A stretch of 64,000 bases of DNA from an uncultured Bacteroidales bacterium (GTDB lineage Bacteria > Bacteroidota > Bacteroidia > Bacteroidales > Paludibacteraceae), in the NCBI GenBank assembly GCA_902800215.1, contig CADCDS010000006.1:90953-154952 (forward strand), read 5' to 3'. The notes beneath the pieces were generated by a model. The model saw only the letters and a program-made list of their open reading frames with translations, was not told the origin of the DNA and ran no database searches. The translations under genes and the position numbers were made by a program. The stretch's first letter is position 1, and each line of letters starts with the position of its first letter. Shown piece after piece: positions 1,521 through 63,152 of the stretch.

Positions 1521-1575
1521 GCGTAGGTAACGCATAGTACTTGCATAGTACTTGCATAGGTAACGCCCATTACAG
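1521..1575. repeat. 11-bp tandem array, core GCATAG
   Basis: Five units of 11 bp begin at 1521, 1532, 1543, 1554 and 1565. The second and third are identical (GCATAGTACTT) and the outer ones read GCRTAGGTAAC. The array fills the gap between the stop at 1585 and the terminator at 1506. Confidence 0.9.
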
Positions 1576-1584
1576 GCGAATGTT

Positions 1585-4011
1585 CTATTTTACGATAGCA
1601 CCCTGAGCATTGAACTCAACGCCGTCACGAACGATGATGAGTTGACCGTCGCGGATTACCTTAACGGCTTTGGTCTCAGCGTTGGTGTTGTCGATAGCGG
1701 TTGGGAATTCTTGAAGGAATTCAGCCGCAACAGTAACAGCCTCTGCCGGCATGATGAAGGTAACATAACCTACTCCGTCGTCATGGAGCGCTACACCGTT
1801 ATAGGTCAAGCTGTAGGTCTTATAGCCTTCAGCTGCTTCGTAATAAACTTTTACTTCCTCACCCGGGATACCCATTTTCCAACCACTGACAGCACCGTTC
1901 TCTGCCTCAGCGTAGTTGATAGTGTATAACTCAGGAGCAGCGAGTTCTTCACCGATAGCGATTTGTTGGAATACTACTGCATTGCCGTCCATCGTCTTGA
2001 TACTGATGAGTTCTTCGGTAGCTGCTGTATGCTCGTAAACATGCTCGGTAATCTCCATTTCTGCATAGTCTCCACCATTGATAGAAACGGTAGGAGTCTT
2101 GGCGATGTTACCGAATTTTACCTTAATGGTTTGACCTGCTGCAACGCGGAAGTTGAGCAGAGCACCCGATTGTTTAACCTTCAGACCGAGGTAAGCGTAG
2201 TTACGCAAACTATCTTTCTTGCTGTTATCCAACGAATCCAACGAACCGGTGATATTTGTTGCATAGTGCTGAGCACCGAGTTGCGAGAGGAAGTCGTAAG
2301 CCTTGCCATTCTCCATAACGGCCTTCTCGAAGTTGTAGGAAGTAGCATAAGCGTTTTCAAATTTAGCATAATAGGTTGTAGCAACGCTGATAACTTCAGA
2401 AGACATGTCTGCTACAATATGTTCGTCTGCAAGGTCTGCATCATTATACCAACCTACGAAGCTTGCAAGCGACTTGTTCTGATATTGAGCGAAATCAGCA
2501 GGATGACCACCGATCGCTACGTTCTCCTCACCCAATTTGGTCTCGCCATCCATGTAGGTTACAACGACACTGTTTTCTTTTGCTGCCTTAACGGTATATG
2601 CAACACCGCCAATAGTAGCAGCAGCTTCCCATGCGCCTTCAACTTCTTCTGCTGTAACCTCAACGACAACATCTTTCTCTGCCTGAGAGTCATCAATATA
2701 AGTGGTAACAACATGCTTCGTGAATTTAACAACCGGAGCATTGACATAAGAATCAGCTAACGTGATTTCGTGGTTAGCTAACAATGCAGCCAAGTCAGAG
2801 ATGGCAACATCATCAACTGCAACTCCTGTCAACGATTCAATAACGTTCTTTGCAGCCATCGGACGGATAACGGACATAGAAGCGAGAACCGGATTCCATT
2901 TGTAACCATCGCTTTCATCGCCGCGGGATACATATAGCGTGTTAATGCTGTTAGCAGCTGCCGGCAATACGATTCTGTACTCCAAAGCAGAGGAAGTCTC
3001 AGTTGCTAAATAAAGGCAATTGGTTCTCTCTTTGTCAGCGAACAAGCACGGATAGTTAGAACCGGCAGTTGTCATAGTGATCACAACGGTGTCACCCTCT
3101 TTGAAATTGCCAGAAGCAAGGGTGATGCCGAAGTATTTTCCCTTATCCATTTTCTTGCTGGAAGAAAGCGAAACGTCAGCCGTACCACCGATGACACCTG
3201 TAACCGTTGCGGCAGTACCGCTGGTCAGCGTAGCCTTGATGATCTCACCGTAAGCGTTAGCCGGATCCATTACGGTAACTACGTGAGCAGCTGCAACAAC
3301 CGGAGTAGTGGTATATTCGTTTGATGCAGCGCAAGTGAAGCTATACTCACCAGCTTCAGTCGGAGAGAAAGTGTATTTCTTTGCATTTGCACCTTCAATC
3401 TCTGTGCCGTTCATGCTCCATTGATAGGTGGTAGCTTTAGCAGCAGTACAGGTCAGTTCAATAGAATTTCCTACCAAACATCCATTCTCACCGCTGATCT
3501 CTGCAGACTCAACCGGGTCTGTAGAAGGAGCTTCACGGTCAACTGCGATAGTACCGAATTTGATATCACTATCGATACGCTCTACACGGATAGTCGTTTG
3601 TCCGACAATAGCATCACCTGCTTGAACGGTGTATGTGAGCGTGTTGGCAGTGCTTGCCGGGAAATCACCAGTAACGGCAATACCATTCAATTTAACACCT
3701 TTACCTTTTTTGGCGCTTGTACCACAAGCCGCAGTAATAGAGATAACGTCACCTTCTGCGAAAGAGCCTTCGCCAGCAAGTGTAAACTCCCATGCGGAAC
3801 TGGAGTTGAATTTGTAGAACGTTTGATCACCGATAGTGATTTCATTTGAACCGCCCGAAGCCATTGCTTTAACGCATTTGGCAGTTCCTCCTTCGGCATC
3901 ATAGATGGTGCCATCAGTGCCGGCAGCTGTCAATGTGTACGAGAAAATCGTCGTAGCACTCATTGCCAAGCTGGCTAATACAGCAGCGGCTAATGTGAAA
4001 ATTTTTTTCAT
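1585..4011 (-). CDS. secreted multidomain protein with Ig-like domain and C-terminal tag
   Basis: The start is ATG at 4011 (MKKIFTLAAAVLASLAMS, a signal peptide), giving 808 aa. A longer in-frame start at 4116 would lie inside the promoter. The protein is beta-rich: an Ig-like module (TTYQWSMNGTEIEGAN), carbohydrate-binding-like stretches, and bacterial-repeat segments (FVGWYNDADL, INYAEAENGAVSG). It ends in the tag VIRDGQLIIVRDG-x-FNAQG, shared with five other proteins here. No catalytic motif was recognised. It is likely exported and anchored or released at the cell surface; the function is unknown. It has its own promoter, divergent from the M6 protease operon, and a strong terminator. Confidence 0.8.
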   Translation of the reverse strand: MKKIFTLAAAVLASLAMSATTIFSYTLTAAGTDGTIYDAEGGTAKCVKAMASGGSNEITIGDQTFYKFNSSSAWEFTLAGEGSFAEGDVISITAACGTSAKKGKGVKLNGIAVTGDFPASTANTLTYTVQAGDAIVGQTTIRVERIDSDIKFGTIAVDREAPSTDPVESAEISGENGCLVGNSIELTCTAAKATTYQWSMNGTEIEGANAKKYTFSPTEAGEYSFTCAASNEYTTTPVVAAAHVVTVMDPANAYGEIIKATLTSGTAATVTGVIGGTADVSLSSSKKMDKGKYFGITLASGNFKEGDTVVITMTTAGSNYPCLFADKERTNCLYLATETSSALEYRIVLPAAANSINTLYVSRGDESDGYKWNPVLASMSVIRPMAAKNVIESLTGVAVDDVAISDLAALLANHEITLADSYVNAPVVKFTKHVVTTYIDDSQAEKDVVVEVTAEEVEGAWEAAATIGGVAYTVKAAKENSVVVTYMDGETKLGEENVAIGGHPADFAQYQNKSLASFVGWYNDADLADEHIVADMSSEVISVATTYYAKFENAYATSYNFEKAVMENGKAYDFLSQLGAQHYATNITGSLDSLDNSKKDSLRNYAYLGLKVKQSGALLNFRVAAGQTIKVKFGNIAKTPTVSINGGDYAEMEITEHVYEHTAATEELISIKTMDGNAVVFQQIAIGEELAAPELYTINYAEAENGAVSGWKMGIPGEEVKVYYEAAEGYKTYSLTYNGVALHDDGVGYVTFIMPAEAVTVAAEFLQEFPTAIDNTNAETKAVKVIRDGQLIIVRDGVEFNAQGAIVK

Positions 4012-4093
4012 TGTGTTTTTGTGTTTTAAGTTAAATGAATAAAATTGGTCTTTATTTGTTTTTTTTGCTAAATGTACTTTGCAAAATCGAATG

Positions 4094-4125
4094 CAAAGGT
4101 ACAATATTTTACGCACATGCGCAAA
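4094..4125 (-). promoter_or_regulatory. Bacteroidota-type promoter for the 1585-4011 gene
   Basis: On the minus strand TTTG (4122-4125), 20 nt, then TACCTTTG (4094-4101). It is divergent from the M6 operon promoter 58 bp away and predicts a leader of roughly 75 nt. Confidence 0.85.
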
Positions 4126-4182
4126 TAAATAAGGAGAAAAAATGCATTTTCTGCAATTTCCGTCAATTTTTCCACATTTAAA

Positions 4183-4214
4183 TTTGTGTATGTCAAAAAA
4201 AAGCAGTAATTTTG
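4183..4214 (+). promoter_or_regulatory. Bacteroidota-type promoter for the M6 protease operon
   Basis: TTTG (4183-4186), exactly 20 nt, TAATTTTG (4207-4214). The expected start of transcription is about 12 nt before the ATG at 4233. This rules out the alternative TTG start at 4212, which is part of the -7 element. Confidence 0.9.
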
Positions 4215-4232
4215 CACGCTAAAATTAGGAAT

Positions 4233-5777
4233 ATGAGAAAAATCGGATATATAATCATTCTGTTGGCTGTTTGCCTGTCCGTTTATGCCGCTCCGGCACG
4301 GAGGGGTTGGATGCCGCGTGTGTTAGCGGATGGTACGGAAGTGGAAGTGCAGCAATATGGCGATGAGTACTATCATTTTATGGTGACAAGAGACGGAAAG
4401 ATGGTAGAAGAGACGGTTGATGGATTACGGATTACGGAAGAACCGGTTCCGACACAAGAGCAAGTGGCTGCACGCCGTGCAAAGAGAGCACCGCAAGCGG
4501 TGGGAAAACCGAACTTGGCTCCCAGAGGATTGGTGATCTTAACCAGTTTCTCCGACCTGCCGATAGCAGAATATAATACAAGCATATCGATCGACTCAAT
4601 GATGAATATATCGGGATACGACTATCATGGTTCTACTGGCTCGGCAAGGGATTATTTCATTGCACAGTCGGACAGCCAGTACATGCCGATCTTCGATGTG
4701 GTAGGGCCGGTTACATTGCCTCATAACAGGGCGTACTATGGCGGCGGATATCCGGATGCCAATCCGAAGCAGATGATAGCGGATGCATGCCAATTAGTGG
4801 ATAGTGAGGTGGATTTTACAAAATATAACAACGATAACGACAGTTATGTGGATTTTGTGTATGTGATCTATGCCGGTATCGGAGAGAATGACCGAGACGG
4901 AGAGTCGGATGCCGTATGGGCGCATAACGGTTCGGCTTCCAGTAAGAACTGTATCGTGGATGGATTGCGTGTGAGCAACTACGCTTGTTCAGGAGACATC
5001 GACGGTATTACTAAAGACCGGAACGGTATCGGTGTGCTGTGCCATGAGTTCAGTCACGTGATCGGTTTACCGGATTATTATAGCACTAATGGTGCTTGTC
5101 CTCCTATTTTCGGCGAATGGAGTATTATGGATTACGGCTGTTATAACCACGATGCACTAACGCCGCCGAATTATTCGATTTTTGACAAGTATTTCATGGG
5201 TTGGGCGACACCGGAAGTGCTGAAAAAGGATTCGGCGATGAATGTGGTGCTGTCTGCGGATTATGACAATGCCTACCAGATCACCGGAGGGGATGCGTTA
5301 TTGCCATATACAACGACGAACACGGTGTATTATATCGAGAACCGCCAGAACACCGGATGGGATGCGTATTTACCGGGTCACGGAATGCTTGTGTGGCGGG
5401 TAAGTTTTAACCAATCCTCATGGAATAGTAACCGGGTCAATTATACGATGGGTTCACCGCGTTATACGGTATATTCCGCGGCTAACGGTCTAATGACCAA
5501 TGGGGATAATGTGTGGAGTACCGCTGCCGATCCCTTCCCGGGAACGGGAAATGTGACGGAATGGACGCCTTTTGAAGGTTGTGCGTTGACGGAGATAGCG
5601 GAAGTCAACGGACAGATCACGTTTAAGTTGAACGGCGGAGCACCGGTGGATCCGACGGACGTAGAGGTTACGGGTGACGGGTTACAGGTTACGGGGAAGA
5701 AGATCATCCGGAACGGACAGTTGATCATTATTCGGGGAGAGAAAGAGTATAACGCGCAGGGCGCCGAGATACGATAA
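4233..5777 (+). CDS. M6-family metalloprotease with C-terminal tag
   Basis: 514 aa. The signal peptide is MRKIGYIIILLAVCLSVYA. A propeptide-like domain (DGTEVEVQQYGDEYYHFMVTRDG) is followed by a basic processing region (RRAKRAPQ) and the M6 domain starting at NLAPRGLVIL. The zinc motif HEFSH is at residues 271-275 (CHEFSHVIGLPDYY), with the downstream Met-turn-like WSIMDYG. The end is the tag IIRNGQLIIIRG-x-x-YNAQG. The protein is a secreted zinc protease; family members cleave host or matrix proteins, but the substrate is unknown. First gene of a five-gene operon, 23 nt before a second M6 protease. A heptamer array (5666-5693) forms the linker just before the tag. Confidence 0.93.
   Translation: MRKIGYIIILLAVCLSVYAAPARRGWMPRVLADGTEVEVQQYGDEYYHFMVTRDGKMVEETVDGLRITEEPVPTQEQVAARRAKRAPQAVGKPNLAPRGLVILTSFSDLPIAEYNTSISIDSMMNISGYDYHGSTGSARDYFIAQSDSQYMPIFDVVGPVTLPHNRAYYGGGYPDANPKQMIADACQLVDSEVDFTKYNNDNDSYVDFVYVIYAGIGENDRDGESDAVWAHNGSASSKNCIVDGLRVSNYACSGDIDGITKDRNGIGVLCHEFSHVIGLPDYYSTNGACPPIFGEWSIMDYGCYNHDALTPPNYSIFDKYFMGWATPEVLKKDSAMNVVLSADYDNAYQITGGDALLPYTTTNTVYYIENRQNTGWDAYLPGHGMLVWRVSFNQSSWNSNRVNYTMGSPRYTVYSAANGLMTNGDNVWSTAADPFPGTGNVTEWTPFEGCALTEIAEVNGQITFKLNGGAPVDPTDVEVTGDGLQVTGKKIIRNGQLIIIRGEKEYNAQGAEIR
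4422..4442. repeat. short heptamer repeat, core GGATTAC
   Basis: Two exact GGATTAC units and a diverged third (period 7) inside the propeptide of the first M6 protease, encoding DGLRITEE. It is the weakest of the heptamer arrays and could be chance. Confidence 0.4.
5666..5695. repeat. heptamer array, GGTTACG family (copy 1 of 4)
   Basis: Four consecutive 7-bp units (5666, 5673, 5680, 5687) with consensus GGTKACG, in frame, encoding VTGDGLQVTGK in the linker before the C-terminal tag. The same unit occurs at 43631 (dxs), 57947 (SpoIID-like) and 59613 (glycosyltransferase). Confidence 0.9.
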
Positions 5778-5800
5778 AAGACTATTAAAAAATTATAGAG

Positions 5801-8167
5801 ATGAGGAAAATTGTTGCAGCAATTTTATTGTGCAGTCTGGCATTGACTGCCCATGCCGTTCCGGCGAAACGCGGATGGCAGACACGTACCCAGGCAGATG
5901 GGTCAAGTATTGAGGTTCAAGTGATCGGTGATGAGTTTTATCACTACACGATTAACCGTGAGGGGAAGCAGATTCGTCTGAATGAGGCGGGTATGTATGA
6001 AGTAGTAGGCGAGGCACCGAGTGCAGCGAAAGTGCAGGCACGTCGTGCCAATGCTCGCAGAGCACGCAGAGAGTTTGGTGTAACGCCGAACTTGGCACCG
6101 AGAGGTATTGTCATCTTGGTGAATTTTACGGACAAGTCGTTTGCAGCATCGCATACGCGTACCGTCGTTGACTCGCTTTGTAATGCAAAGGACTGCCAGG
6201 TGAACAAACACGGCACGAAAGCGTTCCCGTCAGCAGGCCAGTATTTCCTGGACCAATCCAACGGATTGTATCATCCGGTGTTTGACGTGTATGGTCCGGT
6301 GAATCTAAGTCATAACATGAAGTACTACGGAGAGAACGATGAGAACGGCAACGATATGCGTCCGGCAGTAGCCGTAGTAGAGGCATGTAAGCAGTTGGAG
6401 AGTTCGGTGGACTTTACGCTGTATGATTCCGATAACGACGGTAAGGTCGATTTCGTGTATATGATCTATGCCGGTGAAGGCGAGCATGCTACGGAAGTGG
6501 AGAATCAGATCTGGCCGCATGCTTTTTCTATTGACGAGGAGTTTGAGTACGAGGACACCTATTTCACGGATGTCTATCCGACGAAGAACAGTTGTAAGGT
6601 GGATGGCAAGCAGATCAATACCTATGCTTGTTCGTCCGAGTTATCGGGTAGTGACCTGGACGGTATCGGAACATTGTGCCATGAGTTCAGCCACGTAATG
6701 GGTTTACCGGATTTCTACGATACGAAATATGGAAATAACTACAACAACCACGTCACACCGAATGATTGGGACGTAATGGATGGCGGTAGTTACAATGAAG
6801 AAGGTCACTGTCCTCCTAACTACAGTGCATGGGAGAAGTATTTCTTCGGCTGGCATACTCCGGTTAACTTGGGTAACGAAGGTCAGAACCTGACCTTATA
6901 TGCAAGTGGCACGGAGAACTATCAGGCTTATCAGATTAATACAAGCGGAAGCCTTATCACCGCTACTACGGCAGGTGAGTGCTATTATATCGAGAACCGT
7001 CAGGCCGTAGGATGGGATCGTGGTCTGCCGCACCATGGATTATTGATCTGGAAAGTGAACTATAACCAGTCGGCTTGGGTGAATAATGAACCGAATAACA
7101 CGTCCGGTAATCCCCGTTATACGTTGGCTTCGGCTTATGGCACGACGATCGGTACGTATTTGAACAGTTCGCAGACGGCCTATGTATATGACGGACCGAA
7201 GAACCCGTATCCGGGATCCAAGAACGTGACGACGAAGACGATTGCCAATAAACCGCTGTTGAACATTGCGGAGAGCAATCAGTTGATCACCTTGACGTAT
7301 ATCGAGGAACCTGTCGTACCGGTAGATCCGTTTAACGTGGTGTTTAAGGTGAATGGAGCGGATTTTGCAACGGTGGAGAGTACCGGAAAACTGGTATTGC
7401 CGGAGAATGAACCGAGTGCATGCCAGGACGGAAGAGTGTTCATGGGATGGTGCACCAGCGCTAACTACAGCAGTCAAACGACTGCACCGACCTTTGCACA
7501 GGCCGGTCAAGCGGTTCAAGAAGGTGCTGTGTTCTACGCGGTGTTTGCTGACCAGGAAGGCGAAGGCGGTGCCGCTGTGAACGATGAGTTGACCTTAGCT
7601 ACTACCGGCGTTTCCGGTACGAATTATACGGATTGGAGTGGTAAAACCGGTGCATCGGGAGCCGTTTATGCAGGTCAGAGCGCAGGAGGAAACAATGCCA
7701 TTCAATTACGTTCCAAGAACAGCAATTCGGGAATTATCACTACCACTTCCGGCGGAAAGGTTTCTAAGATCACGGTCGTATGGAACAGCAGTACTTCCGG
7801 TCGTACCTTGGATGTATATGGAAAGAGCAGTGCTTATTCGAGTCCTTCGGATCTGTATGGCAATAACAAAGGTACCAAGATCGGTTCTATCGCCAGCGAT
7901 ACGGATACGGAGTTGACGGTAGAAGGCGAATATACGTATATCGGTCTTCGTTCCAATAGCGGTGCATTGTGGTTAGACAAGATCACGATCACTTGGGGCG
8001 GTGGTGCTTCCTACAGCAACTACAGCACGTTATGCGGCGGTGGTGAGTCGATTGTAGAAACCATCGGTGAGCAAGAGAAGACTGTGAAGAAAGCGATTCG
8101 GAATGGTCAGTTAGTGATTATTCGCGGAGAAGAAGTGTACTCGATCACCGGTGAACGGATTGAATGA
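5801..8167 (+). CDS. M6-family metalloprotease with C-terminal tag
   Basis: 788 aa, a paralogue of the preceding gene. The signal peptide MRKIVAAILLCSLALTAHA is followed by a propeptide (YHYTINREGKQIRLNE), a basic stretch (RRANARRARRE), and the catalytic domain with HEFSH at residues 294-298 (CHEFSHVMGLPDFYD) and WDVMDGGSYN downstream. After the protease comes a bacterial-repeat module (VFMGWCTSANYSS) and a Ser/Gly-rich beta domain. The end is the tag AIRNGQLVIIRG-x-x-VYSITG. A secreted zinc protease. It overlaps the next gene by 4 bp (ATGA), indicating coupled translation. Confidence 0.93.
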   Translation: MRKIVAAILLCSLALTAHAVPAKRGWQTRTQADGSSIEVQVIGDEFYHYTINREGKQIRLNEAGMYEVVGEAPSAAKVQARRANARRARREFGVTPNLAPRGIVILVNFTDKSFAASHTRTVVDSLCNAKDCQVNKHGTKAFPSAGQYFLDQSNGLYHPVFDVYGPVNLSHNMKYYGENDENGNDMRPAVAVVEACKQLESSVDFTLYDSDNDGKVDFVYMIYAGEGEHATEVENQIWPHAFSIDEEFEYEDTYFTDVYPTKNSCKVDGKQINTYACSSELSGSDLDGIGTLCHEFSHVMGLPDFYDTKYGNNYNNHVTPNDWDVMDGGSYNEEGHCPPNYSAWEKYFFGWHTPVNLGNEGQNLTLYASGTENYQAYQINTSGSLITATTAGECYYIENRQAVGWDRGLPHHGLLIWKVNYNQSAWVNNEPNNTSGNPRYTLASAYGTTIGTYLNSSQTAYVYDGPKNPYPGSKNVTTKTIANKPLLNIAESNQLITLTYIEEPVVPVDPFNVVFKVNGADFATVESTGKLVLPENEPSACQDGRVFMGWCTSANYSSQTTAPTFAQAGQAVQEGAVFYAVFADQEGEGGAAVNDELTLATTGVSGTNYTDWSGKTGASGAVYAGQSAGGNNAIQLRSKNSNSGIITTTSGGKVSKITVVWNSSTSGRTLDVYGKSSAYSSPSDLYGNNKGTKIGSIASDTDTELTVEGEYTYIGLRSNSGALWLDKITITWGGGASYSNYSTLCGGGESIVETIGEQEKTVKKAIRNGQLVIIRGEEVYSITGERIE

Positions 8168-8718
8168 TCAAGGCGTTACCGCATATATGGATGATTTGTT
8201 GGATGCTGCTGAGTCCTGCTATTTGCATGGCTCAGCGGAATCCGGTAAGGCATACATTTCATAGCGATTCGCAAGGCGGGGTAAGGTTGACGTTTAGCGC
8301 TGACTACAAACAAGGATATACTTCCTTATTGACCTATACCTGCAGCCATAATGCGGTTTTTGGAACATATACGGTGGGTTATACGCCTACTATCTGTATC
8401 AATCTGCCGGAGAAGGATGATTTTGTGACGACCACAGCGGTGGATAGTCTGAGAGCAGTGACGATAGGTTTTTATCCGAATACCGACAAACGCCATGATG
8501 TGAAGTTGCAATTATCGAGAGATAGTATCCATTGGTCCGACTCGATTGTTTCGGATTTGATGTATAATTCGGCAGGATTGATAAGGGCGACTTTTGTGCC
8601 GGGACGGTATTATGTGCGGATAAAGAATACTACCATTAAGAAGAAAGCGGTGTCGCTGTGGTATATCGAGTACTTGTTTGGAGATTGTAATTGCGTGCTA
8701 TATATTCCGGAAGAATGA
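8164..8718 (+). CDS. small secreted protein of unknown function
   Basis: 184 aa, family not recognised. The N-terminus is a signal peptide (MIKALPHIWMICWMLLSPAICMAQ). The mature part is beta-rich with Cys residues (YTCSHNAV, TICINL, FGDCNCVLYI). Both ends overlap neighbours as ATGA, so it is firmly inside the protease/S26/PqqD operon. It might be a substrate or partner of the downstream peptidase; this is inference from position only. Confidence 0.7.
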   Translation: MIKALPHIWMICWMLLSPAICMAQRNPVRHTFHSDSQGGVRLTFSADYKQGYTSLLTYTCSHNAVFGTYTVGYTPTICINLPEKDDFVTTTAVDSLRAVTIGFYPNTDKRHDVKLQLSRDSIHWSDSIVSDLMYNSAGLIRATFVPGRYYVRIKNTTIKKKAVSLWYIEYLFGDCNCVLYIPEE

Positions 8719-9170
8719 AGATAGCGAATGACATATTGATTCCTGAACTGGCGCGATTGGTAGCCGAAGGTAAGGAAGTGCGGTTTACGCCGGCAGGCGT
8801 AAGCATGCGGCCGTTTATTGAAGGAGATAAGGATAGCGTGGTGTTAGAGCCTTTACGCCGTGCGCCGAGAAGGGGTGATGTGTTGTTAGCGGAAGTGGAG
8901 ACGCTTTGCGGAAGGAGGACGTATGTGCTGCACCGATTGGTACGGATAGAGGGCGAGACCTTGGTGCTGCAAGGGGACGGAAACTTACGGGGAGAGGAAA
9001 GATGTGGTATCGGTGACGTTATTGCACGCGTGAAGCGGGTAGAGAGTCCCAAAGGGCACCGAAAAATGCTGACGAGAGGTTTTATCTGGTACGGATTGAA
9101 ACCGGTAAGAAAGTGGTTATTAAAGATTTATAGACATTCGATATTAATTTGGTTTTATGAAAACAATTGA
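8715..9170 (+). CDS. S24/S26-type serine peptidase (signal-peptidase-like)
   Basis: 151 aa from ATG 8715; an upstream in-frame start would overlap the preceding gene further. The motif FTPAGVSMRPFIEGD carries the expected nucleophile Ser before Met, and RGDVLLAEV plus YVLHRLVRIEGETLVLQGDGN match the S26/S24 core. The general base seen as Lys in LepB is not obvious; the family often has His/Lys variants here (VLHRLV). A C-terminal hydrophobic tail (YRHSILIWFY) may attach it to the membrane. Bacteroidota commonly pair this kind of peptidase with a PqqD-like protein, as here. It probably processes an exported or modified peptide; the target is unknown. Confidence 0.82.
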   Translation: MKIANDILIPELARLVAEGKEVRFTPAGVSMRPFIEGDKDSVVLEPLRRAPRRGDVLLAEVETLCGRRTYVLHRLVRIEGETLVLQGDGNLRGEERCGIGDVIARVKRVESPKGHRKMLTRGFIWYGLKPVRKWLLKIYRHSILIWFYENN

Positions 9171-9423
9171 AGGATTTAAGTTGCGTAAGTTAGGCAACGA
9201 GTATATTTTAGTAGGCGAGTCGATGGCGTTGATCAATTTCAACAAGATGATCACGCTGAACGAGACAGCTGCTTTCTTATGGAAAGAAGCAGAGAAGGGT
9301 AGTTTTGACGCAGCATCGCTGTGCAAGGCTTTGTGCGATGAGTACGACGTAGCACCGGAGAAGGCGATGACGGATGTGGTAGCTACGATCGATTCCTGGA
9401 AAGAAGCTGGAGTGATAGAGTAA
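9157..9423 (+). CDS. PqqD-family peptide-binding protein
   Basis: 88 aa. The fold signature LRKLGNEYILVGESMALINFNKMITLNETAAFLWKEAEKG shows the beta-hairpins and the NETAAFLW helix of PqqD/RRE proteins (quoted stretches: LGNEYILVGE, MITLNETAAFLW). PqqD domains bind leader peptides of ribosomally made, modified peptides and hand them to enzymes. No radical SAM or other modifying enzyme lies next to it, so the partner is unknown. It overlaps the S24/S26 gene by 14 bp and closes the operon. A candidate short peptide is at 20075. Confidence 0.82.
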   Translation: MKTIEGFKLRKLGNEYILVGESMALINFNKMITLNETAAFLWKEAEKGSFDAASLCKALCDEYDVAPEKAMTDVVATIDSWKEAGVIE

Positions 9424-9484
9424 GGTGAAAGGAGGAAGGTGAAAGGTGAAAGATCCTTTCAATTTTCATTTTTCAATTTTCAAT
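9424..9484. repeat. two adjacent heptamer arrays after pqqD-like gene (GGTGAAA, then TTTCAAT)
   Basis: Starting right after the stop codon, four units of consensus GGTGAAA (9424-9451) are followed by four units of TTTCAAT (9457-9484), both period 7. The two arrays are partly complementary (GAAAG, ATC, CTTTC) and T-rich at the 3' side, so they may act as the operon terminator. Confidence 0.85.
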
Positions 9485-9486
9485 TA

Positions 9487-9570: not shown

Positions 9571-9622
9571 CGCGTTTTTGGGTACAAAAATTAAGAATTT
9601 ACAAAAATTAGGTATAAAAAAG

Positions 9623-12420: not shown

Positions 12421-12738
12421 CACCCAATTTTGGAAACTACGGCTAAGAAAATGTGCACAAAATCTTAATAATCGTACATTTTGATAAATCAACTTGACAA
12501 TTAGTCCAAAAGGACCAAAAATGAGCAAAAAAATAATTGAAATGGCAAAGTGGCAAAATGACAAAGTGTCCTGAGGCCGCTAAAATCAAGGAGTTTGCCA
12601 ACTTTGCCACTTTGTCACGACAAAAATAAAGTGTCTCAGAGTCTCAGAGTCTCACGACATTTTTTGAAAATAGACAAAATGGACAATATGGACAAAATGG
12701 ACAGTCCACAAAAATATAACAAACAAGAAATTTAAGGT
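12421..12738 (+). other. 318-nt 5' leader with three tandem arrays and a long hairpin
   Basis: No credible gene. Contents: a GTCC-AAAA-GGAC mini hairpin near 12513; an 8-bp array TGGCAAAG (12543-12566); its inverted copy at 12603-12617, giving a 15-bp stem with one G-U pair against 12543-12557; an 8-bp array GTCTCAGA (12633-12656); and a 9-bp array ATGGACAAA (12670-12705). It may control translation of the giant protein. Confidence 0.75.
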
Positions 12739-53125: not shown

Positions 53126-53194
53126 TATTTTGTCCATTACCTGGAATGCTATTCCGGTCGTTTTACCCACCTTCGGTAATATCCTCTCCCTTTT

Positions 53195-53264
53195 CTCCAC
53201 GTGGTCTCCACCTGGTTTCAATGGATGCTCAATGGATGCTGAAAGGGTGCTCAATGGATGCTCA
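53195..53264. repeat. two adjacent 11-bp arrays
   Basis: Two units of CTCCACSTGGT (53195, 53206), then four units of ATGGATGCTCA type (53221, 53232, 53243, 53254). Confidence 0.88.
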
Positions 53265-53352
53265 AACCTTGCTTCATCCATTGTCACACTTCTGAAAAGC
53301 CTATATCTGCTTAAGAAAATTTGTGACTGATTTGTCACTTCGAAATTCTTTG

Positions 53353-56055: not shown

Positions 56056-56767
56056 ACTCACTATCGGCTACGGTGCGACTATCGTCCAACGTGACCTCTC
56101 CTTCTCGCTGAATACCGGCGAGATGGTTTGCATGTTAGGTCCGAACGGTTGTGGAAAATCAACCCTCTTACGCACTTTAGCCGGCTTACAACCGGCACTC
56201 TCCGGTGAATATACACACAGTGATGCGAAGAATATCGCGCTTGTCCTCACTGAACGCCTCTCGATGGATAATACGACCGTCCATGACGTCGTCGCGTTAG
56301 GTCGTTATCCCTATTCATCCTTCTTGGATGGCTTAAAGAAAGAAGATGAAGAGATTATTGCCGAATCGTTAAAGCAAGTAGGCTTCGAAAATCAAACTAC
56401 TTCAAACGATATCAAACAACTTCAAACAACGTTCTTTAATGCCCATTCCGATGGAGAGAAACAGCGTATCTTAATCGCCAAAGCGCTTGCGCAACAGACA
56501 CCTATTATTCTTCTCGACGAGCCCACCGCGCACCTCGATCTGCCGCATAGAATATTGATTTTGCGCCTCCTGCGTACCCTTGCACACGAACAAGGCAAAA
56601 CGATTTTGATCTCTACGCACGAATTGGATTTGGCCTTAGCACTCAGTGACCGCATCTTACTGATGACGCCCGGTCACGGCATTCAATTGGACACTGCTGC
56701 GAACCTAAAAAAAGCTAACGCTTTCACGTCAGCTTTTGGAATGGATATCTTCAATCCGCTCGGCTAA
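56027..56767 (+). CDS. ABC transporter ATP-binding protein (FecE/BtuD-like), orphan
   Basis: 246 aa, GTG start at 56027, 29 bp inside the alr gene. Walker A GPNGCGKST (38-46), Walker B IILLDEPTAHLDL, H-loop STHELDL. The signature is HSDGEKQR, a weak LSGGQ. Best fit is the iron-siderophore/cobalamin importer family, but no permease or binding protein is nearby. A 10-bp array (56392-56431) encodes QTTSNDIKQLQTTF just before the signature. It ends 39 bp inside the convergent methyltransferase gene. Confidence 0.85.
   Translation: MSNVSISTNKLTIGYGATIVQRDLSFSLNTGEMVCMLGPNGCGKSTLLRTLAGLQPALSGEYTHSDAKNIALVLTERLSMDNTTVHDVVALGRYPYSSFLDGLKKEDEEIIAESLKQVGFENQTTSNDIKQLQTTFFNAHSDGEKQRILIAKALAQQTPIILLDEPTAHLDLPHRILILRLLRTLAHEQGKTILISTHELDLALALSDRILLMTPGHGIQLDTAANLKKANAFTSAFGMDIFNPLG
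56392..56431. repeat. 10-bp array, TCAAACNNNN family (copy 1 of 2)
   Basis: Four units (56392, 56402, 56412, 56422) inside the ABC ATPase gene. The same family is at 58823. Confidence 0.92.
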
Positions 56768-57832
56768 GAATAGGGTAGGTTTGTTATTCACTCTACAACC
56801 AATCACATAAGCTGTACCTCCATCACGAAGGTGCAGTTTTTTCTTTAATTGTTCCGGTGTTAATGGATAATTGCGACACAGCACATTCGCCTGTTTAAGA
56901 TCTTGTTTTTCAGTAATTCGCCAAATTCTGCCGGGGAAATTCTCGATTAATGTATCCGAACCATAAAGATGCGTATTTACATCCAATTTGTGCAGTCCAA
57001 AACGTTCGGCAATAAGTTTATATGCCCCGGCTTTGAGGATAGCAGCCGAAGGCTCATAGAGATAATTCTCCAATTTCCAATTTCCAATCTCCAATATACA
57101 ATTTTGCTCTTCTCCTCGTGAGAAGACAAACGCTTGGTCCTTTTGGGTAAGATCGATGGCGGTTATTTGTCCGGAGCCACCGCTAAGAAGGAGAACTTCT
57201 TTTACTTCGTTCTTGATGGCGATTACGAAGATGTCCCAACATACTTGCGAAAGACTTGTTACCGCTTGTGTCAGGTCCAACATCGGCGATAATTTAATCA
57301 TCAGCCGTTTGCCATGTGCCAGCAGAGTAGGTAACAACTCCACCACATTCGGTGTGCAGTCTTCAAGACGAAAGACTTTACCGCCATGACTATCGCGTCG
57401 TGCAGGATCAATAAAAATCAAATCATATTGTCCGGCTGAGGCTAAAAATTCTTCGGCGGACGTATTATGAATCGAAATGGGCTTATGGCTGAAATTATGC
57501 TCCGCTATTCGGCATAGTTCTGCATTCTGCTCGACGTAGTCGGTGTGCGTAAATTGTTCGCTGATAAAGTAGGTATCTACGCCATAACCGCCTGTCAAAT
57601 CCACCATCGTTTCTCCGCTCACAAGGCTGGCTTTATACCGTGCCGCTAATTCCGAAGAACACTGTTCACAACTTAGTCTCACCGGATACCACCAATCAGG
57701 AATAGATGCAAAAGTGGGCAACTTATCCGCTGTCCGTTCTTTTCCTTCCACTTGTTGGAGAAACCACCGCCATTCCTCATCCGAAAGGTGCTTGTATTTA
57801 GAGCGCTGGAGTGCTAAGTCGGCTACCGACAT
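56729..57832 (-). CDS. class I SAM methyltransferase with THUMP-like C-terminal domain
   Basis: 367 aa. SAM motif VDLTGGYGVDTYFISEQ; catalytic-type motif IFIDPARRD (in place of NPPY). N-terminal helical part includes SCEQCSSELAARYKA; the C-terminal half (YEPSAAILKAGAYKLIAERFGL, LCRNYPLTPEQLKKKLHLRDGG) fits the THUMP-like domain of this Bacteroidota family. Substrate unknown, perhaps RNA. An inverted ATTGGAN array (57070-57104) encodes CILEIGNWKLENY. It overlaps the SpoIID-like gene by 35 bp and the ABC gene tail to tail by 39 bp. Confidence 0.88.
   Translation of the reverse strand: MSVADLALQRSKYKHLSDEEWRWFLQQVEGKERTADKLPTFASIPDWWYPVRLSCEQCSSELAARYKASLVSGETMVDLTGGYGVDTYFISEQFTHTDYVEQNAELCRIAEHNFSHKPISIHNTSAEEFLASAGQYDLIFIDPARRDSHGGKVFRLEDCTPNVVELLPTLLAHGKRLMIKLSPMLDLTQAVTSLSQVCWDIFVIAIKNEVKEVLLLSGGSGQITAIDLTQKDQAFVFSRGEEQNCILEIGNWKLENYLYEPSAAILKAGAYKLIAERFGLHKLDVNTHLYGSDTLIENFPGRIWRITEKQDLKQANVLCRNYPLTPEQLKKKLHLRDGGTAYVIGCRVNNKPTLFLAERIEDIHSKS
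57070..57104. repeat. heptamer array, ATTGGAG family inverted (copy 3 of 3)
   Basis: Five units CCAATTT/CCAATCT (reverse complement AAATTGG/AGATTGG) in the methyltransferase gene; same family as 21504 and 21694. Confidence 0.9.
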
Positions 57833-58826
57833 AATAATAACTGAGTATTTCTTCGTACTTCATTCCTTCGCTTGCCATCACCGCCGCACCTATCTGACAA
57901 AGTCCGGCGCCGTGACCCCAACCGTGTCCAATTAGCGTCCATGAGGGGTTACCGGTTACGGGTGACGGGTTACGGGAAACTTCAAACCAGGAACTATAGA
58001 GACAAGACTTACTTAACCAATACCGGATCTTGAGTTCTTTGCCGATGATCTCGGTGTGTTTGGTGCCAACAATCTTGAGGCTGTCGATGCGACCACTTAC
58101 TCCACGATGAAGCGGAATAAGATCGATAATATCACCGAAGTCAATTCCGGACTTAATACGTACGATCTCACTAAGTTCTTCTTGCGTATAACTTACTTTC
58201 CAATCCCGGAAATCGGTGGTCTCCTGGTCATAATCGTTCAGTACTAATCGCAGTACTTTCGGCGAAGGAGATTTGCAGTAATTGCATTGTACCGATTGGA
58301 TATACGGCACGTCTATATCTTCCCAGCAGGTTCGCCAAATTTCTGTCTTACCACCGCAACATTTGTAATACCGGCAATCACATATCTCATCGCTATACAT
58401 CAACACCTGCCCTCTTGTCGCGTTGACGGCTTCTACGGCACGTTCGTTCATTCGTTTTAGTCCCTCGTACCGCTGACAATGATCGTCACCACACACATCA
58501 TACCCCTCATGGTTCGGTTTTTGCATCGCACGAATGGCCCAACTCCTACTAATGACCGCGTGTGCTTTGAGCAGTTCCATCGGACTATTGGCGTTCATTT
58601 CAGACGAGATGACGGAACACAAGTACTCCTCCAGATCGATGGTGTTGATGGCCGTTTGGGTACCATCCTCATTATCCCGAATTTCCAAAGAACCGGCAAA
58701 CTCTTGGTCTTCCTGTCTGTCCCAATGAAAACCAATACCGATGCGGACATTCTTTAGAATGAACGTCTTTTCCTTTTGCTCAAATTCGATCTTTGGCGCT
58801 GTTAATATACCAACACGTATATTCAA
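57798..58826 (-). CDS. SpoIID/LytB-domain protein
   Basis: 342 aa. The start is a TTG at 58826 inside a tandem array; no ATG lies upstream in frame. SpoIID blocks: LEEYLCSVISSEMNANSPMELLKAHAVISRSWAI, YYKCCGGKTE, and GHGWGHGAGLCQIGA near the C-terminus. SpoIID enzymes are lytic transglycosylases on denuded glycan; in Bacteroidota the family probably works on peptidoglycan recycling or cell-wall turnover. No signal peptide at the chosen start. Residues 285-293 (NPSPVTGNP) come from a GGTTACG array. Third gene of the sugar-kinase operon. Confidence 0.85.
   Translation of the reverse strand: MNIRVGILTAPKIEFEQKEKTFILKNVRIGIGFHWDRQEDQEFAGSLEIRDNEDGTQTAINTIDLEEYLCSVISSEMNANSPMELLKAHAVISRSWAIRAMQKPNHEGYDVCGDDHCQRYEGLKRMNERAVEAVNATRGQVLMYSDEICDCRYYKCCGGKTEIWRTCWEDIDVPYIQSVQCNYCKSPSPKVLRLVLNDYDQETTDFRDWKVSYTQEELSEIVRIKSGIDFGDIIDLIPLHRGVSGRIDSLKIVGTKHTEIIGKELKIRYWLSKSCLYSSWFEVSRNPSPVTGNPSWTLIGHGWGHGAGLCQIGAAVMASEGMKYEEILSYYYVGSRLSTPAL
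57947..57975. repeat. heptamer array, GGTTACG family (copy 3 of 4)
   Basis: Four 7-bp units in the SpoIID-like gene, opposite orientation to coding compared with copy 2 in dxs. Confidence 0.92.
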
Positions 58827-58858
58827 ACTACTTCAAACAATGTCAAACTATTTCAAAC
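58823..58858. repeat. 10-bp array, TCAAACNNNN family (copy 2 of 2)
   Basis: Units at 58823, 58833, 58843 and a partial at 58853. They span the junction of the glycosyltransferase stop and the SpoIID-like TTG start. Confidence 0.92.
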
Positions 58859-60203
58859 GAGCTTGCAGCTCCCATGTGCGCAGACGGTCCTTGTACCAGT
58901 TATTACGGTTCATAGCAACGATGTCGCAGTTAGCATCCGAGTTATCTTCCCACCGGCGGCAGTTATACAGCACGTCGTAGATACGACCGATAGGATAGTC
59001 CCGACTGATACGCAAACCGACCGCATAGTCCTCACCATACTTGGTGGTAGGATAATTGATGGTGCGTAATAGCGGCACATAGAACCCACGCGGTGCACCG
59101 AGACCATTGATGCGTAGCGCATTGTTCCGTCCATTATCATCCGTCCATTCGCGGTGATCAATTACACCCGGCGGTAAGATCTCACCGGCCATATTCGTTA
59201 ACTGATACGTACCGATGACCATGCCGTAACGGGGAGCCGCATGGATATCTTGCTCCGGTTCTAAACCGGCGAAGGCATCAATAAACTTCTGCACGGTCGT
59301 CTCGTCGAAATAGGTATCATCGCTATCTAACTGAATGGCATACATCCCGCAACGAGGATCATGAATCGCCACGTTCCAGTTTCCGCCAATCGCGTGCCAG
59401 GTCTTGTCCTGGGCTATATATATAAGGCTCTTAGCTCTTAGCTCTTGGCTGTTGGCTATTTCTTGAATGATCTCTTTCGTACCATCGGTAGAATTATCGT
59501 CCACTACAATGACATTGAAGCTATACCCTTCCCGTACTTTCTGATTCAAAGCACTATGAATGGCATCAGCGATTGTGCGTGCACGGTTCTTACAAGGAAT
59601 GATGACCGAAGCGGTGACGGGGTACGGGTTACCGGTTACGGGTAATTCTTTATACTCGCCGGGTTTCAGGTACGCACCGATCCGTTTGAGGTGCGCCGTT
59701 ACACAGGCTTCCATCTCGATCTGTACTTGACGGTTTCGCGGATCTACATAGTCGAAGAGTTTTTCTCCGGACTTACGGGTGTCGGTTTCTACTTCATAAT
59801 ACAAATACTCCGGGATATGCTCCAATTTCTCAGCGCGAAGTCTTAGATCATACAGTCCTGCAAACTCATACTCCGTATCCATCTGAGCCACGATGGATTT
59901 GAGTTTAGCGGTGTCCCAAAGGAGGACTGCACCGAAATCAAAATCATCGCGTAACGCACCGATCTGGTAGTCGATGACCGGCGCTTCCGTAACCACGTCA
60001 TTGATCTTGGCAAAATGGTCTGCATAAACCATCGTCGCACCGCTCATTTCGAGCACTTGGATCATTCGCTCTTGCCCCAGATAAACCCATTCGATCTCGG
60101 GTTTGAGACAGATCATGGTGTACTTCTCGGTGGTCTTTTCAGCGATTTCCTTAATCGCCTTGGTCGAACAAACGCGACCCGGTAAATAGAAAACAGATAT
60201 CAT
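58848..60203 (-). CDS. family 2 glycosyltransferase with N-terminal extension
   Basis: 451 aa. Residues 1-187 are an extra domain of the Bacteroidota type ([40 protein letters not shown]). The GT-A domain begins at about 199 ([24 protein letters not shown]), with [12 protein letters not shown] and the metal-site [12 protein letters not shown]. Transfers a sugar, donor and acceptor unknown. Two arrays interrupt it: residues about 188-198 ([10 protein letters not shown], linker before the GT domain) and 248-259 ([12 protein letters not shown]). It overlaps the sugar-kinase gene by 4 bp. Confidence 0.88.
59426..59460. repeat. heptamer array, RGCTNTT family (copy 3 of 3)
   Basis: Five 7-bp units from 59426 inside the glycosyltransferase gene. 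Confidence 0.92.
59613..59642. repeat. heptamer array, GGTTACG family (copy 4 of 4)
   Basis: Four 7-bp units from 59613 in the glycosyltransferase gene, 153 bp from the other array. Confidence 0.92.
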
Positions 60204-61277: not shown

Positions 61278-61300
61278 CAATGGGCCGTTCGGTGGTACGA

Positions 61301-61690
61301 TTAGCCGTTCAGGCTCTCGTCGTACTGGTCACCGCAGATCTTCCAGTAATAGGCCTTGAGGGTCTTCTTACCGTCTGCGAGGTCCTTCTGGGCGATGAAG
61401 GCAGCTTGGTCGGCTGCAATCTTGGTGAGGTCGCCTTTACGCTGCTTCACCATCGCGGCTACGGTGCTGAACCGCAGACGTGCTGCAGCCTCATCCGCCG
61501 TGATCGGGGTGGTACGCTCGTAAGCGTCCTCCTTGCGGATGTACAGACGCATGCAGTTCGGGTTCTGGGTGGGCGCGATACGGTGAGTGCCGATGAGGTA
61601 CGTTCCGCAGGAGTGACCGTTCTTTACGGTCGGTTTGGCAAGACTACCTTGAACGGTGTCAATACCGGTTGCATAATGGACTTTTGCCAT
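61301..61690 (-). CDS. hypothetical protein, paralogue of 63165
   Basis: 129 aa, unknown function, no signal peptide. Pattern GSLAKPTVKNG..., NCMRLYIRKEDAYERTTPITADEAAARLRFSTVAAMV. The same order of motifs (HMYFRSADSYKRKSPVSENELAARSRFATISEKIK) is in the gene at 63165, so the two are diverged duplicates in one block. Such genes are seen near integrated elements of Bacteroidales; role unknown. Confidence 0.75.
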   Translation of the reverse strand: MAKVHYATGIDTVQGSLAKPTVKNGHSCGTYLIGTHRIAPTQNPNCMRLYIRKEDAYERTTPITADEAAARLRFSTVAAMVKQRKGDLTKIAADQAAFIAQKDLADGKKTLKAYYWKICGDQYDESLNG

Positions 61691-61701
61691 AGTGAGTAAG
61701 T

Positions 61702-61749
61702 GTTAAAACGTTAAATTGTTAAACTGTTAAACTGTTAAATTGTTAATGG
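61702..61749. repeat. 8-bp array, core GTTAAA
   Basis: Six units of GTTAAANN (61702 to 61742) in the gap between the small lipoprotein stop and the 61301 gene start. Confidence 0.92.
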
Positions 61750-62203: not shown

Positions 62204-62405
62204 TGTTGCTTTGGTTTTTGCGTTTGTAATGGTAGTCGATACCGATGATAGATCCGGCGAAGGTAGCTATCTCACCGAAGGCGACGAGTATCGTATCATG
62301 GATCTCTCCTTGGGGTGCGAAGCAAGCGCCGAGGAAGAGTAGGGCGATACCGGCAAGCGCAAGCGCGGCAGCAATAATGAGTTGTATGGTTTTGTTATCG
62401 TTCAT
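62172..62405 (-). CDS. small two-helix membrane protein, holin-like
   Basis: 77 aa. Two hydrophobic helices (LIIAAALALAGIALLFLGACFA and ILVAFGEIATFAGSIIGI), then YHYKRK and a polar tail. A common Bacteroidales mobile-element protein with no proven function; size and topology fit a holin. 32-bp overlap with the DUF5675 gene. Confidence 0.72.
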   Translation of the reverse strand: MNDNKTIQLIIAAALALAGIALLFLGACFAPQGEIHDTILVAFGEIATFAGSIIGIDYHYKRKNQSNNDSTNTNTPQ

Positions 62406-62431
62406 AATGTGTTATGGGTTATGGATTATGC
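62404..62431. repeat. heptamer array, core GTTATGG
   Basis: Four 7-bp units (62404, 62411, 62418, 62425) overlapping the start of the membrane-protein gene. Confidence 0.85.
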
Positions 62432-62561
62432 TACTCATCAAAAAACGTACTGCCCCGTACTCGTGTTTCGCGTTCCCTAACCGCTCCACAACGTTTTTGA
62501 TTGAGTACATACTCCAATGCGGGTGTCGGGTAAATGGACAGATGTTTTCTGAAATCCGGTG

Positions 62562-62592
62562 CAAAGGTAGTACAAAAATGCGAGACCGCCAA
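62562..62592 (-). promoter_or_regulatory. promoter overlapping a terminator
   Basis: On the minus strand TTG (62590-62592), 20 nt, TACCTTTG (62562-62569). The -33 lies in the loop of the terminator at 62574-62608. Likely drives the holin-like, DUF5675, lipoprotein and 61301 genes. Confidence 0.75.
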
Positions 62593-62608
62593 GAAAAGCA
62601 GTCTCGCA
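62574..62608 (-). terminator. terminator of the 62630 gene
   Basis: On the minus strand an 8-bp stem TGCGAGAC/GTCTCGCA (62601-62608 with 62579-62586), 14-nt loop, T run at 62574-62578. Confidence 0.88.
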
Positions 62609-62629
62609 AGTCTAAAAAATGGTCGTTTT

Positions 62630-63109
62630 TCAATTTCTGTCAATCGGATAGCCTACATATAAGGCAAATTCGTGTGCCTTAACGGGAGACATCCATCCTT
62701 GCCTAAATATAGACCCCGCCCATCCGGTTTTATGTCTTTTGTGTTTGCCAAAGCACAAAATCAACGTTCTAAATGCGCTCGATGGGTGATCATAATTCAT
62801 TATCGCCTGCAAATTCCGTTGCATATCAACGAGATCGAGGCGGAGGTTCTGCATGGCGATGAAGCAGTGGGCTTCGTACAAGGCCGTTTTGAGTTCTTCA
62901 CGCGAGACGCGGATGTCCGTGATGTGTAGTTTGTTCTGTGCGAGTTCGGCGCAGAGGAAGATGAAGCGGAGGTGTCCGTCAGGAGGGACGGAGCCGCGTT
63001 GGTTTCGTTTGGCGAAGAAGCCGTTTTTGCGGTGCTCGATGTGATATCCGAGCGAATGGTCCAGCATTCCGGTGAGGGAGATGCAGTTGGTTGATAAGAT
63101 GATTTTCAT
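62630..63109 (-). CDS. conserved Bacteroidales mobile-element protein, unknown function
   Basis: 159 aa from ATG 63109 (MKIILSTNCISLTGMLDHSLGYHIEHRKNGFFAKRN; short core LGYHIEHRKNGFF). The block VPPDGHLRFIFLCAELAQN and REELKTALYEAH is typical of a short protein found in Bacteroidales ICEs and prophages. The C-terminal third is less conserved. No signal peptide. Confidence 0.8.
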   Translation of the reverse strand: MKIILSTNCISLTGMLDHSLGYHIEHRKNGFFAKRNQRGSVPPDGHLRFIFLCAELAQNKLHITDIRVSREELKTALYEAHCFIAMQNLRLDLVDMQRNLQAIMNYDHPSSAFRTLILCFGKHKRHKTGWAGSIFRQGWMSPVKAHEFALYVGYPIDRN

Positions 63110-63119
63110 AATTCTAAAC

Positions 63120-63152
63120 AGGTAATAACCAGGTAATGATAAGGTAATGAGT
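63120..63152. repeat. 11-bp array, core AGGTAAT
   Basis: Three units (63120, 63131, 63142) in the gap between the 62630 and 63165 genes. Confidence 0.9.

Follow-up and report, generated by a model that had tools for sequence, protein, structure and literature searches.

In cyanobacteria, short tandemly repeated repetitive (STRR) heptamers form dispersed, short, head-to-tail arrays of mostly 7 bp units. The arrays described here, from a 64 kb stretch (hereafter the window; C6:90953-154952) of an uncultured Bacteroidales bacterium of the Paludibacteraceae (assembly 1.96 Mb, 30 contigs, 85% complete), resemble them in being dispersed, head to tail and most commonly 7 bp in period. They are unlike STRR heptamers in that more than 100 seven-mer unit types occur alongside units of 8-11 bp, that units are degenerate within an array, and that arrays commonly lie within conserved genes and differ between close relatives. 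The arrays are real and clade-wide, and we interpret them as dispersed, degenerate, minisatellite-like tracts that would be copied in pre-formed, altered by slippage and filtered for frame, a plausible reading that we favour but hold tentatively.

Heptamer arrays as such are already known in bacteria, and two papers (PMC4679880, PMC4692102) support an earlier note on this DNA, which had named cyanobacterial-type heptamers as the nearest precedent. As described there, TAACTGA arrays are found in Beggiatoaceae, cyanobacteria and five Bacteroidetes including Paludibacter, and a mechanism of horizontal spread is not evident for them (MacGregor 2015, PMC4679880); GGGAATC and GGGGA(C/T)T heptamers are found in Xanthomonas and Nostoc, and detailed literature on heptameric repeats is called lacking (Rehm 2015, PMC4692102). 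Both papers refer to the long simple sequence repeats of Mrazek 2007, with 5-11 bp units and heptamers commonest in most genomes, and PMC4679880 relays the proposal from that work that they arise by polymerase slippage, heptamers being favoured by the polymerase footprint. With the TAACTGA repeats our arrays share few-copy heptamers at gene junctions, repeat-free spacers in relatives, and stops in all frames in one orientation (PMC4679880). That system has one favoured unit, single-base variants that are rarely arrayed, and a position mostly upstream of start codons (PMC4679880), unlike the many units, the variants mixed within arrays and the 44% of arrays inside genes seen here. The Xanthomonas and Nostoc heptamers comprise one G-rich motif type per group and are linked by their authors to greater, not lesser, stability (PMC4692102). 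Long simple sequence repeats are, in these accounts, selected for length, with multiple-of-3 units likeliest in genes (PMC4679880, PMC4692102), whereas here 7 bp arrays dominate in genes too. Compared with heptamer-type repeats in general, 7 bp is the commonest period and the same unit recurs at many dispersed sites, but coding copies do not mainly have a multiple-of-3 period.

A literature search that covered few subscription journals found no description of such an array density, of the number of unit families per genome, of regular presence in core-gene loops, or of same-site turnover in close relatives; the two papers above were the only bacterial ones on heptamer arrays among those listed. 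Heptamer arrays have been noted repeatedly in bacteria without a settled mechanism, and some 80 related genomes with same-site alleles open this question to testing, since events of gain, loss, exchange and frame filtering can be tallied across them. New peptide loops seem to arise by this process in enzymes such as 1-deoxy-D-xylulose 5-phosphate (DXP) synthase and dephospho-CoA kinase, which would make it a visible origin of small in-frame insertions into essential proteins.

Arrays in the window

A self-match scan at lags of 6-12 (match +1, mismatch -2), read at a score of at least 10 and at a stricter cut-off of at least 12, found 30 and 19 arrays in the window, in keeping with the count of at least 25 in the earlier note; 20 dinucleotide shuffles gave a mean of 0.45 (maximum 3) and none, respectively. 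At the stricter cut-off the periods were 7 (11 arrays), 8 (3), 11 (3), 9 (1) and 10 (1). Tandem Repeats Finder (TRF) at a score of at least 30 returned 72 overlapping rows, weak two-copy rows included, and detected an array at 38322 in the MBOAT gene that the scan missed at 10. Twenty further stretches of the same genome, together with the window (462,808 bases), held 108 arrays at 12 or above, or 2.3 per 10 kb, and one shuffle of each of these stretches held none. Other real genomes also fell below this: a 50 kb control from E. coli K-12 had no array, and among 12 readable stretches from other Bacteroidales families (13 fetched, one all N) ten had none and two had 3 and 1. An artefact is unlikely, and an assembly artefact in particular because one array is identical in loci L040 and L048, from separate metagenome-assembled genomes (MAGs; UBA3653 and RGIG4850).

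The arrays of the window, with the signal peptidase gene discussed below, are as follows (ORF, open reading frame; aa, amino acids).

1532-1559, no strand: 11 bp array of about 2.5 GCATAGTACTT units between ORF 109-603 and ORF 1585-4116
4422-4438, plus: weak 7 bp array GGATTAC (score 10) in M6-peptidase-like ORF 4212-5777
5666-5692, plus: 7 bp array GGTTACG/GGTGACG near the 3' end of ORF 4212-5777
9422-9485, no strand: two abutting 7 bp arrays, GGTGAAA followed by TTTCAAT, between ORF 8691-9170 and ORF 9578-12271
12508-12703, no strand: array cluster in the spacer before ORF 12739; a weak 10 bp and two 8 bp rows (TGGCAAAG and its inverse, TRF only), then 8 bp GTCTCAGA and 9 bp AAAATGGAC
21504-21535, minus: 7 bp array ATTGGAG in the DUF4861 gene, aa 342-352
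21694-21724, minus: 7 bp array ATTGGAT/ATTGGAG in the DUF4861 gene, aa 279-289
22391-22424, minus: 8 bp array CGGAATAC/CGGAATCC near the 5' end of ORF 21383-22558; TRF scores 55 and 40, self-match below 9
24725-24763, minus: 7 bp array ATTTGTG/ATTTTTG where the 3' end of the flippase-like gene overlaps the 5' part of a pseudouridine synthase ORF
26241-26272, no strand: 7 bp array GTACGAT where the flippase-like gene meets ORF 26270-27148
27147-27171, no strand: 7 bp array ATTTTAA abutting the start of ORF 26270-27148
34073-35473, minus: signal peptidase I-like gene (Peptidase_S26), with no strong array, only a 6 bp row at 34625-34643; 4 bp overlap with upstream ORF 35470-36192
36447-36477, minus: 7 bp array GCTGTTG in coaE, aa 95-105 (KAKSQQLTANS)
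38322-38352, minus: 7 bp array TTGGCTG in the MBOAT gene (TRF only); other peptides at this site in relatives
39720-39793, minus: 8 bp array CGGTATTC, then weak 7 bp CTGAATC, in a GDSL-lipase-like gene
43117-43151, minus: weak 7/14 bp array GCCTCTAACCGTTC in dxs; TRF score 40
43629-43660, minus: 7 bp array AACCCGT in dxs, aa 324-334
44186-44216, minus: 7 bp array TTAATTT in dxs, aa 139-149 (NSKLKIKNEEL), adjoining a conserved NVVAIIGDGAMTGG stretch
53194-53339, no strand: 11 bp arrays, weak TCTCCACCTGG, strong TCAATGGATGC and weak ATTTGTCACTG, after ORF 46661-53050
56392-56430, plus: 10 bp array TCAAACNNNN in the ABC ATPase gene, aa 122-135
57069-57102, minus: 7 bp array CCAATTT in the THUMP-like gene, aa 244-255
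57947-57976, minus: 7 bp array GGTTACG in the SpoIID-like gene, aa 284-294
58822-58858, minus: 10 bp array TTCAAACNNN spanning the glycosyltransferase/SpoIID-like junction and holding the glycosyltransferase stop
59427-59457, minus: 7 bp array GGCTCTT/GGCTGTT in the family-2 glycosyltransferase gene, aa 249-259
59617-59643, minus: 7 bp array GGGTTAC in the family-2 glycosyltransferase gene, aa 187-196
61702-61746, no strand: 8 bp array GTTAAATT/GTTAAACT after ORF 61280-61699
62407-62430, plus: weak 7 bp array ATGGGTT in ORF 62245-62682
63115-63150, minus: 11 bp array AGGTAATNNNN in ORF 62630-63214

The observation in the earlier note is confirmed. Some rows are weak or ordinary, for example a 6-mer at 34625 (score 10) and 9-mers at 2227 (score 10) and 63915 (score 11). 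The host genes named in the earlier note are borne out by Pfam matches (coaE, MBOAT, DUF4861, dxs, SpoIID, the family-2 glycosyltransferase, a murF-alr fusion, an ABC protein and a flippase-like Polysacc_synt), its methyltransferase gene matching PG_1098_Fer and Thump_like. Unit families recur at different sites and on both strands of the window, a recurrence across sites that the earlier note had listed as support: the GGGTTAC family at 5666, 43629, 57947 and 59617, and the ATTGGAG family at 21504, 21694 and 57069. Two pairs of neighbouring arrays, GGTGAAA/TTTCAAT (9422-9485) and TGGCAAAG/TTTGCCAC (12543-12618), are near reverse-complementary, making hairpins possible.

Distribution and unit repertoire among relatives

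For comparison, 80 loci (L032-L111; 3.9 to 21.5 kb each) were kept of 284 encoding a relative, with one genome per species; orthologous pairs drawn from them are not independent. Among named relatives the nearest are MAGs from rumen and gut (Paludibacteraceae/Bacteroidales), and the signal peptidase (34073-35473) is 82% identical to its best match. At least one array is present in 79 of the 80 loci, L045 having none, and density ranges from 0 to about 10 per 10 kb; L045, L054, L088, L105 and L108 carry at most one array in about 21 kb, and others 12-18. Period 7 accounts for 378 of the 587 arrays in the window and these loci, followed by 8 (85), 11 (49), 9 (32), 12 (21), 10 (13) and 6 (9), and most arrays are 20-60 bp long. 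The 9 and 12 bp arrays are mostly coding-interior (21/32 and 20/21) and are probably ordinary peptide repeats.

The 378 seven-mer arrays collapse to 112 canonical units, of which AAAGTCG is the commonest (45 arrays in 25 loci), and adjacent units within 7 and 8 bp arrays differ at about 10% of sites. Of 178 genomes of the genus, 61 contain three exact copies of AAAGTCG, and several of them do so at ten places or more; across the order only 2 of 247 genomes contain them, both of this genus. The same unit read backwards, a control biased for coding arrays in that it holds a stop codon, matched one place in one of the 178 and one place in one other of the 247 genomes. Within the samples examined, the AAAGTCG unit is confined to the genus. 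Three copies of AATTGAG are scattered through 14 of the 247 order genomes, our own genome not among them, and other Bacteroidales therefore also carry heptamer arrays with other units; the backward-read control, itself a heptamer array unit, was matched in 6 of 247. Exact matches between seven-mer units make up 8.0% of the pairs from one locus and 3.1% of comparisons between genomes, against 0.5% for letter-shuffled units, and like units cluster modestly within 6 kb (77 versus 63 expected, p 0.0015; in a thinned set 30 versus 23.6, p 0.019).

Placement in and between genes

Of the 587 arrays, 258 lie in coding interiors (random expectation 82%), 187 are intergenic (5.6%), 104 fall at junctions (4%) and 38 near gene ends (8.5%), placing 291 in intergenic or junction positions, where about 10% would be expected by chance. 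Among spacers of 15-400 bp, 287 of 728 hold an array at a score of at least 10. In same-direction spacers the sense-strand unit contains a stop codon in 214 of 270 arrays, compared with 51 of 245 coding arrays, some of which may stem from the crude gene calls used outside the window (longest ORFs of at least 80 aa); on the antisense strand about half of the units contain a stop, in spacers and coding regions alike. Spacer arrays are also biased in strand relative to transcription, with 130 of 168 seven-mers purine-rich and 35 pyrimidine-rich. This strand bias and the junction excess, along with cores that in some cases stay constant within an array, are what one would expect if arrays were selected binding or translation sites, spacers gaining sites for a nucleic-acid-binding protein as has been proposed for the Beggiatoaceae TAACTGA repeats. 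Yet close relatives differ in the unit and period found at one site, many arrays sit in coding loops with unrelated units, and the strand bias may mirror general strand composition, making such selection distinctly improbable. A sequence-specific function need not be invoked, since what is preserved at a site is location and frame and not the unit or even the period.

Coding-interior arrays have period 7 in 179 of 258 cases, and those within the ORFs of the window are translated through in frame, encoding loops of dxs, coaE, MBOAT, SpoIID, the glycosyltransferase and others. The dxs insert NSKLKIKNEEL is missing in L032, L057, L062 and L074, near-identical in L050 and replaced by different peptides elsewhere, and at the coaE array site seven residues are lacking in 7 of the 13 relatives shown.

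In the signal peptidase, nearly all interior arrays of 76 full-length orthologues (81 sequences tried) sit at one of two positions, and their units are as varied as AAAGTCG, AGTTGAG, GGACAAA, ACAGAAC, ACCAAGT and AGCCGTC. The 6 bp row of the window at 34625-34643 borders one such site, and many relatives bear an array at that loop. Both positions rank with the widest stretches of variable length in the alignment, and tolerance is therefore enough to account for where the arrays sit; there are further stretches of variable length, and target preference as a cause of the shared positions was set aside. The earlier note had counted arrays at the same positions in distant homologues against insertion. 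Such sharing does occur in part, at the signal peptidase sites, but the units change there and permissive loops can explain it.

The recurrence of these two positions in many species also raises allele exchange, in which arrays would occupy fixed old sites and be swapped between species by homologous recombination of the flanks, new insertion being rare. A unit repertoire shared equally between genomes and within one (see below) fits such exchange. Array-free alleles are frequent, however, and exchange leaves the origin of the different arrays unexplained; we consider it a rather unlikely account of the whole.

Turnover at orthologous sites

Turnover was followed in 21 pairs of relatives at about 85-95% identity over aligned DNA, with totals summed over pairs that share species and overlap, and with sites counted in both directions. 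Of 246 array sites, 86 were unplaced and 160 placed. The partner kept the same family and length at 57 and the same family with changed length at 15; it had another family of the same period at 28 and another period at 15; and it was array-free and shorter at 23, longer at 11 and of similar length at 11. Array-free alleles do therefore occur in close relatives, in support of the earlier note. Of 2520 random array-free windows 756 were unplaced, and 53 of the 1764 placed ones differed in length by at least 5, a measure not identical to that used for array sites. Array sites vary between close relatives much more than the DNA around them. Examples of replacement at one site include an 8 bp GTTAAACT array in L051 against a 7 bp AATTGAG array in L082, a 9 bp CTAGAAGAA-type array in L060 against AATTACG units in L063, and AAAGTCG in L080 where L087 has no array and L067 a palindrome-like CCTCTCC...GAGAGG insert.

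A larger set for reading frame took in 604 placed sites from 94 pairs of relatives. Among nonzero length differences, 91 of 94 in coding sequence are multiples of 3, compared with 101 of 349 in spacers; 35 mixed-context sites were set aside, with 11 of 22 of their nonzero differences multiples of 3. Together with the in-frame read-through in the window, this agrees with the earlier note that coding arrays keep the frame. Of its phrase "insertion plus selection for frame", the selection is borne out, while insertion versus loss is usually not settled. Arrays of unchanged family within genes, whose hosts include dxs, coaE and the signal peptidase, had identical length in 44 of 44 comparisons between species, which bears on length switching of the phase-variation type. 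Outside genes, nonzero length differences of same-family 7 bp arrays are multiples of 7 in 20 of 43. Given constant lengths in genes and whole-unit steps outside them, slippage by whole units is likely ongoing and eliminated inside genes, where one or two units break the frame.

Slippage alone might be thought sufficient, if chance near-duplicates of 7-11 bp expanded, the polymerase footprint favoured 7 and tolerance decided survival. The dominance of period 7, as reported for other bacteria in PMC4679880 and PMC4692102, and the whole-unit steps outside genes agree with this, as does a remnant of the first array's unit in 20% of 97 alleles holding another array (10% by chance). Array-free alleles nevertheless show no seed beyond chance: the unit is present in none of the 23 short ones (chance about 1%) and within one mismatch in 9% (18% by chance at one or none), and across all 112 array-free alleles it is present in 9% against 5% by chance. 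Gain by slippage from a local seed is accordingly disfavoured. Moreover, the AAAGTCG unit is genus-bound in the samples examined, units coincide between genomes about six times more often than letter-shuffled ones, and families and periods differ at the same site in close relatives. We regard slippage alone as unlikely, if less so than allele exchange.

The 4 bp overlap before the signal peptidase gene is array-free in the window, L034, L069 and L070, and 8 bp arrays are found there in at least L046, L047, L061, L080, L090 and L091. This junction was not upheld as proof of gain, some relatives having a longer end to the upstream gene, and the start codon was not located in many rows of the comparison. 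Across L032-L111 the 3' end of that gene (35470-36192 in the window), which we take to be dapB-like, varies: in some relatives it continues WLKGK..HTM.EVL, and in others it stops or changes right after ..AAE, followed by arrays or other spacer.

Palindrome-like inserts of the CCTCTCC...GAGAGG type occur at array sites of relatives in L067 (matching L080 10757-10787 and L087 2043-2078), in L038 (matching L077 6445-6484) and, in L073, directly after the signal peptidase gene. The L067 insert encodes SPQPSPQERE in the signal peptidase loop.

Candidate machinery

Profiles were compared across 24 incomplete assemblies, 12 array-rich, 11 array-poor and our own, a contrast that reflects one locus of about 12-21 kb per genome, with the L068 genome only 0.9 Mb. 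A dedicated mobile or copying system, whether a transposase, a reverse transcriptase or another enzyme with a repeat template, could insert arrays, and the lack of a seed in array-free alleles, the lineage-specific unit and the palindrome-like inserts at the same sites in relatives would fit it. Inspection by eye of the 23 shorter array-free alleles, however, showed no common ends and no target duplication of the kind that an insertion sequence, MITE or REP element would carry. Reverse transcriptase (RVT_1) exceeds the cut-off in only two of the 24 genomes (1/12 array-rich, 1/11 array-poor, not our own) and was rejected as the copier, as was the Y1/REP transposase, over the cut-off in 11 of 24 (4/11 array-poor, 6/12 array-rich and our own) but mostly as weak partial matches showing no pattern with density. 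A dedicated system thus appears doubtful, somewhat more so than exchange of old alleles. A crude test for repetitive extragenic palindrome (REP)-like perfect GC-rich hairpins found 5 against 13 in one shuffle, leaving palindrome-like inserts unsupported as a general class.

Loss of mismatch repair and a Y-family polymerase were also rejected as causes, mutS1 and the polymerase each being over the cut-off in 22 of 24 genomes. Clustered regularly interspaced short palindromic repeat (CRISPR) arrays do not match, the units being 6-12 bp head to tail and not repeats of at least 20 bp with like-sized unique spacers. Nor was there a sign of wobble copying, transitions making up 0.49 of the differences between neighbouring units versus 0.59 in orthologous DNA.

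Proposed origin of the arrays

Short-patch double illegitimate recombination, known from Acinetobacter, replaces tens of bases with ectopic DNA without long homology, although we know of no preference of this process for tandem arrays. We propose that a pre-formed array, mostly of 20-60 bp, may be copied to a new place or over the content of a tolerant one, the donor being another array in the same genome or in DNA of a relative, and the route either an illegitimate replacement of a short patch or a template switch during replication, at a few bases of homology. Copy number would then shift by whole units through slippage, the pattern seen in spacers, while units would mutate and in-phase fusions of two families arise. 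In the last step, matching the observed placement, arrays would stay where they are least harmful, at gene junctions and in variable loops; within genes, frame changes would be purged and mostly stop-free units remain. Template switching or patch replacement fits the size of the arrays, the few changed edge bases, the lack of evident common ends and the in-phase fusions. By eye, AATTGAG units run into AAAGTCG in L063 where L060 has AAAGTCG only, GGACAAA runs into GGAATCA in L086 and AAAGGCG into ACGGGTT in L150, with a further case in L039.

Several observations weigh against copying of pre-formed arrays. No donor was traced for any array. The direction of change is usually not fixed, and clean loss of whole arrays could likewise leave no seed. 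The enrichment of the first array's unit in alleles with another array, noted above, points to some change in place. An automatic search for adjacent arrays of two families yielded only six candidates, and these included the reverse-complementary pair at 9422-9485; the in-phase fusions therefore rest mainly on the examples found by eye. Our own genome is no more uniform in its units than a set of 69 arrays taken one per other genome (59% versus 58%), so that genome-wide unit homogenisation was not upheld for it as a general rule, and the like-unit clustering within 6 kb, modest overall, is absent there (p 0.74). With no extra uniformity within the genome and only modest local clustering, exchange between species becomes an alternative for the donor. 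Finally, loss of RecJ, a suppressor of short-patch double illegitimate recombination, raises short illegitimate patch events elsewhere, but RecJ is over the cut-off in 22 of 24 genomes here and was discarded as a clue to array activity. Template switching or patch replacement by itself leaves the high array activity of this lineage unexplained. A bolder formulation, which we think unlikely, is that the arrays are minimal mobile DNA without ends, genes or evident target preference, pre-formed tracts of 20-60 bp spread by an active, so far undescribed copying process of the lineage that continually rewrites gene junctions and the surface loops of essential enzymes.

Other features of the window

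The last 45 or so residues of ORF 1585-4116 match many other ORFs of the genus and resemble a sorting domain for type IX secretion. Two adjacent ORFs at 4212-8167 match the M6 metallopeptidase (immune inhibitor A) family, and the window contains two giant ORFs, 12739-19866 (2375 aa) and 46661-53050 (2129 aa).

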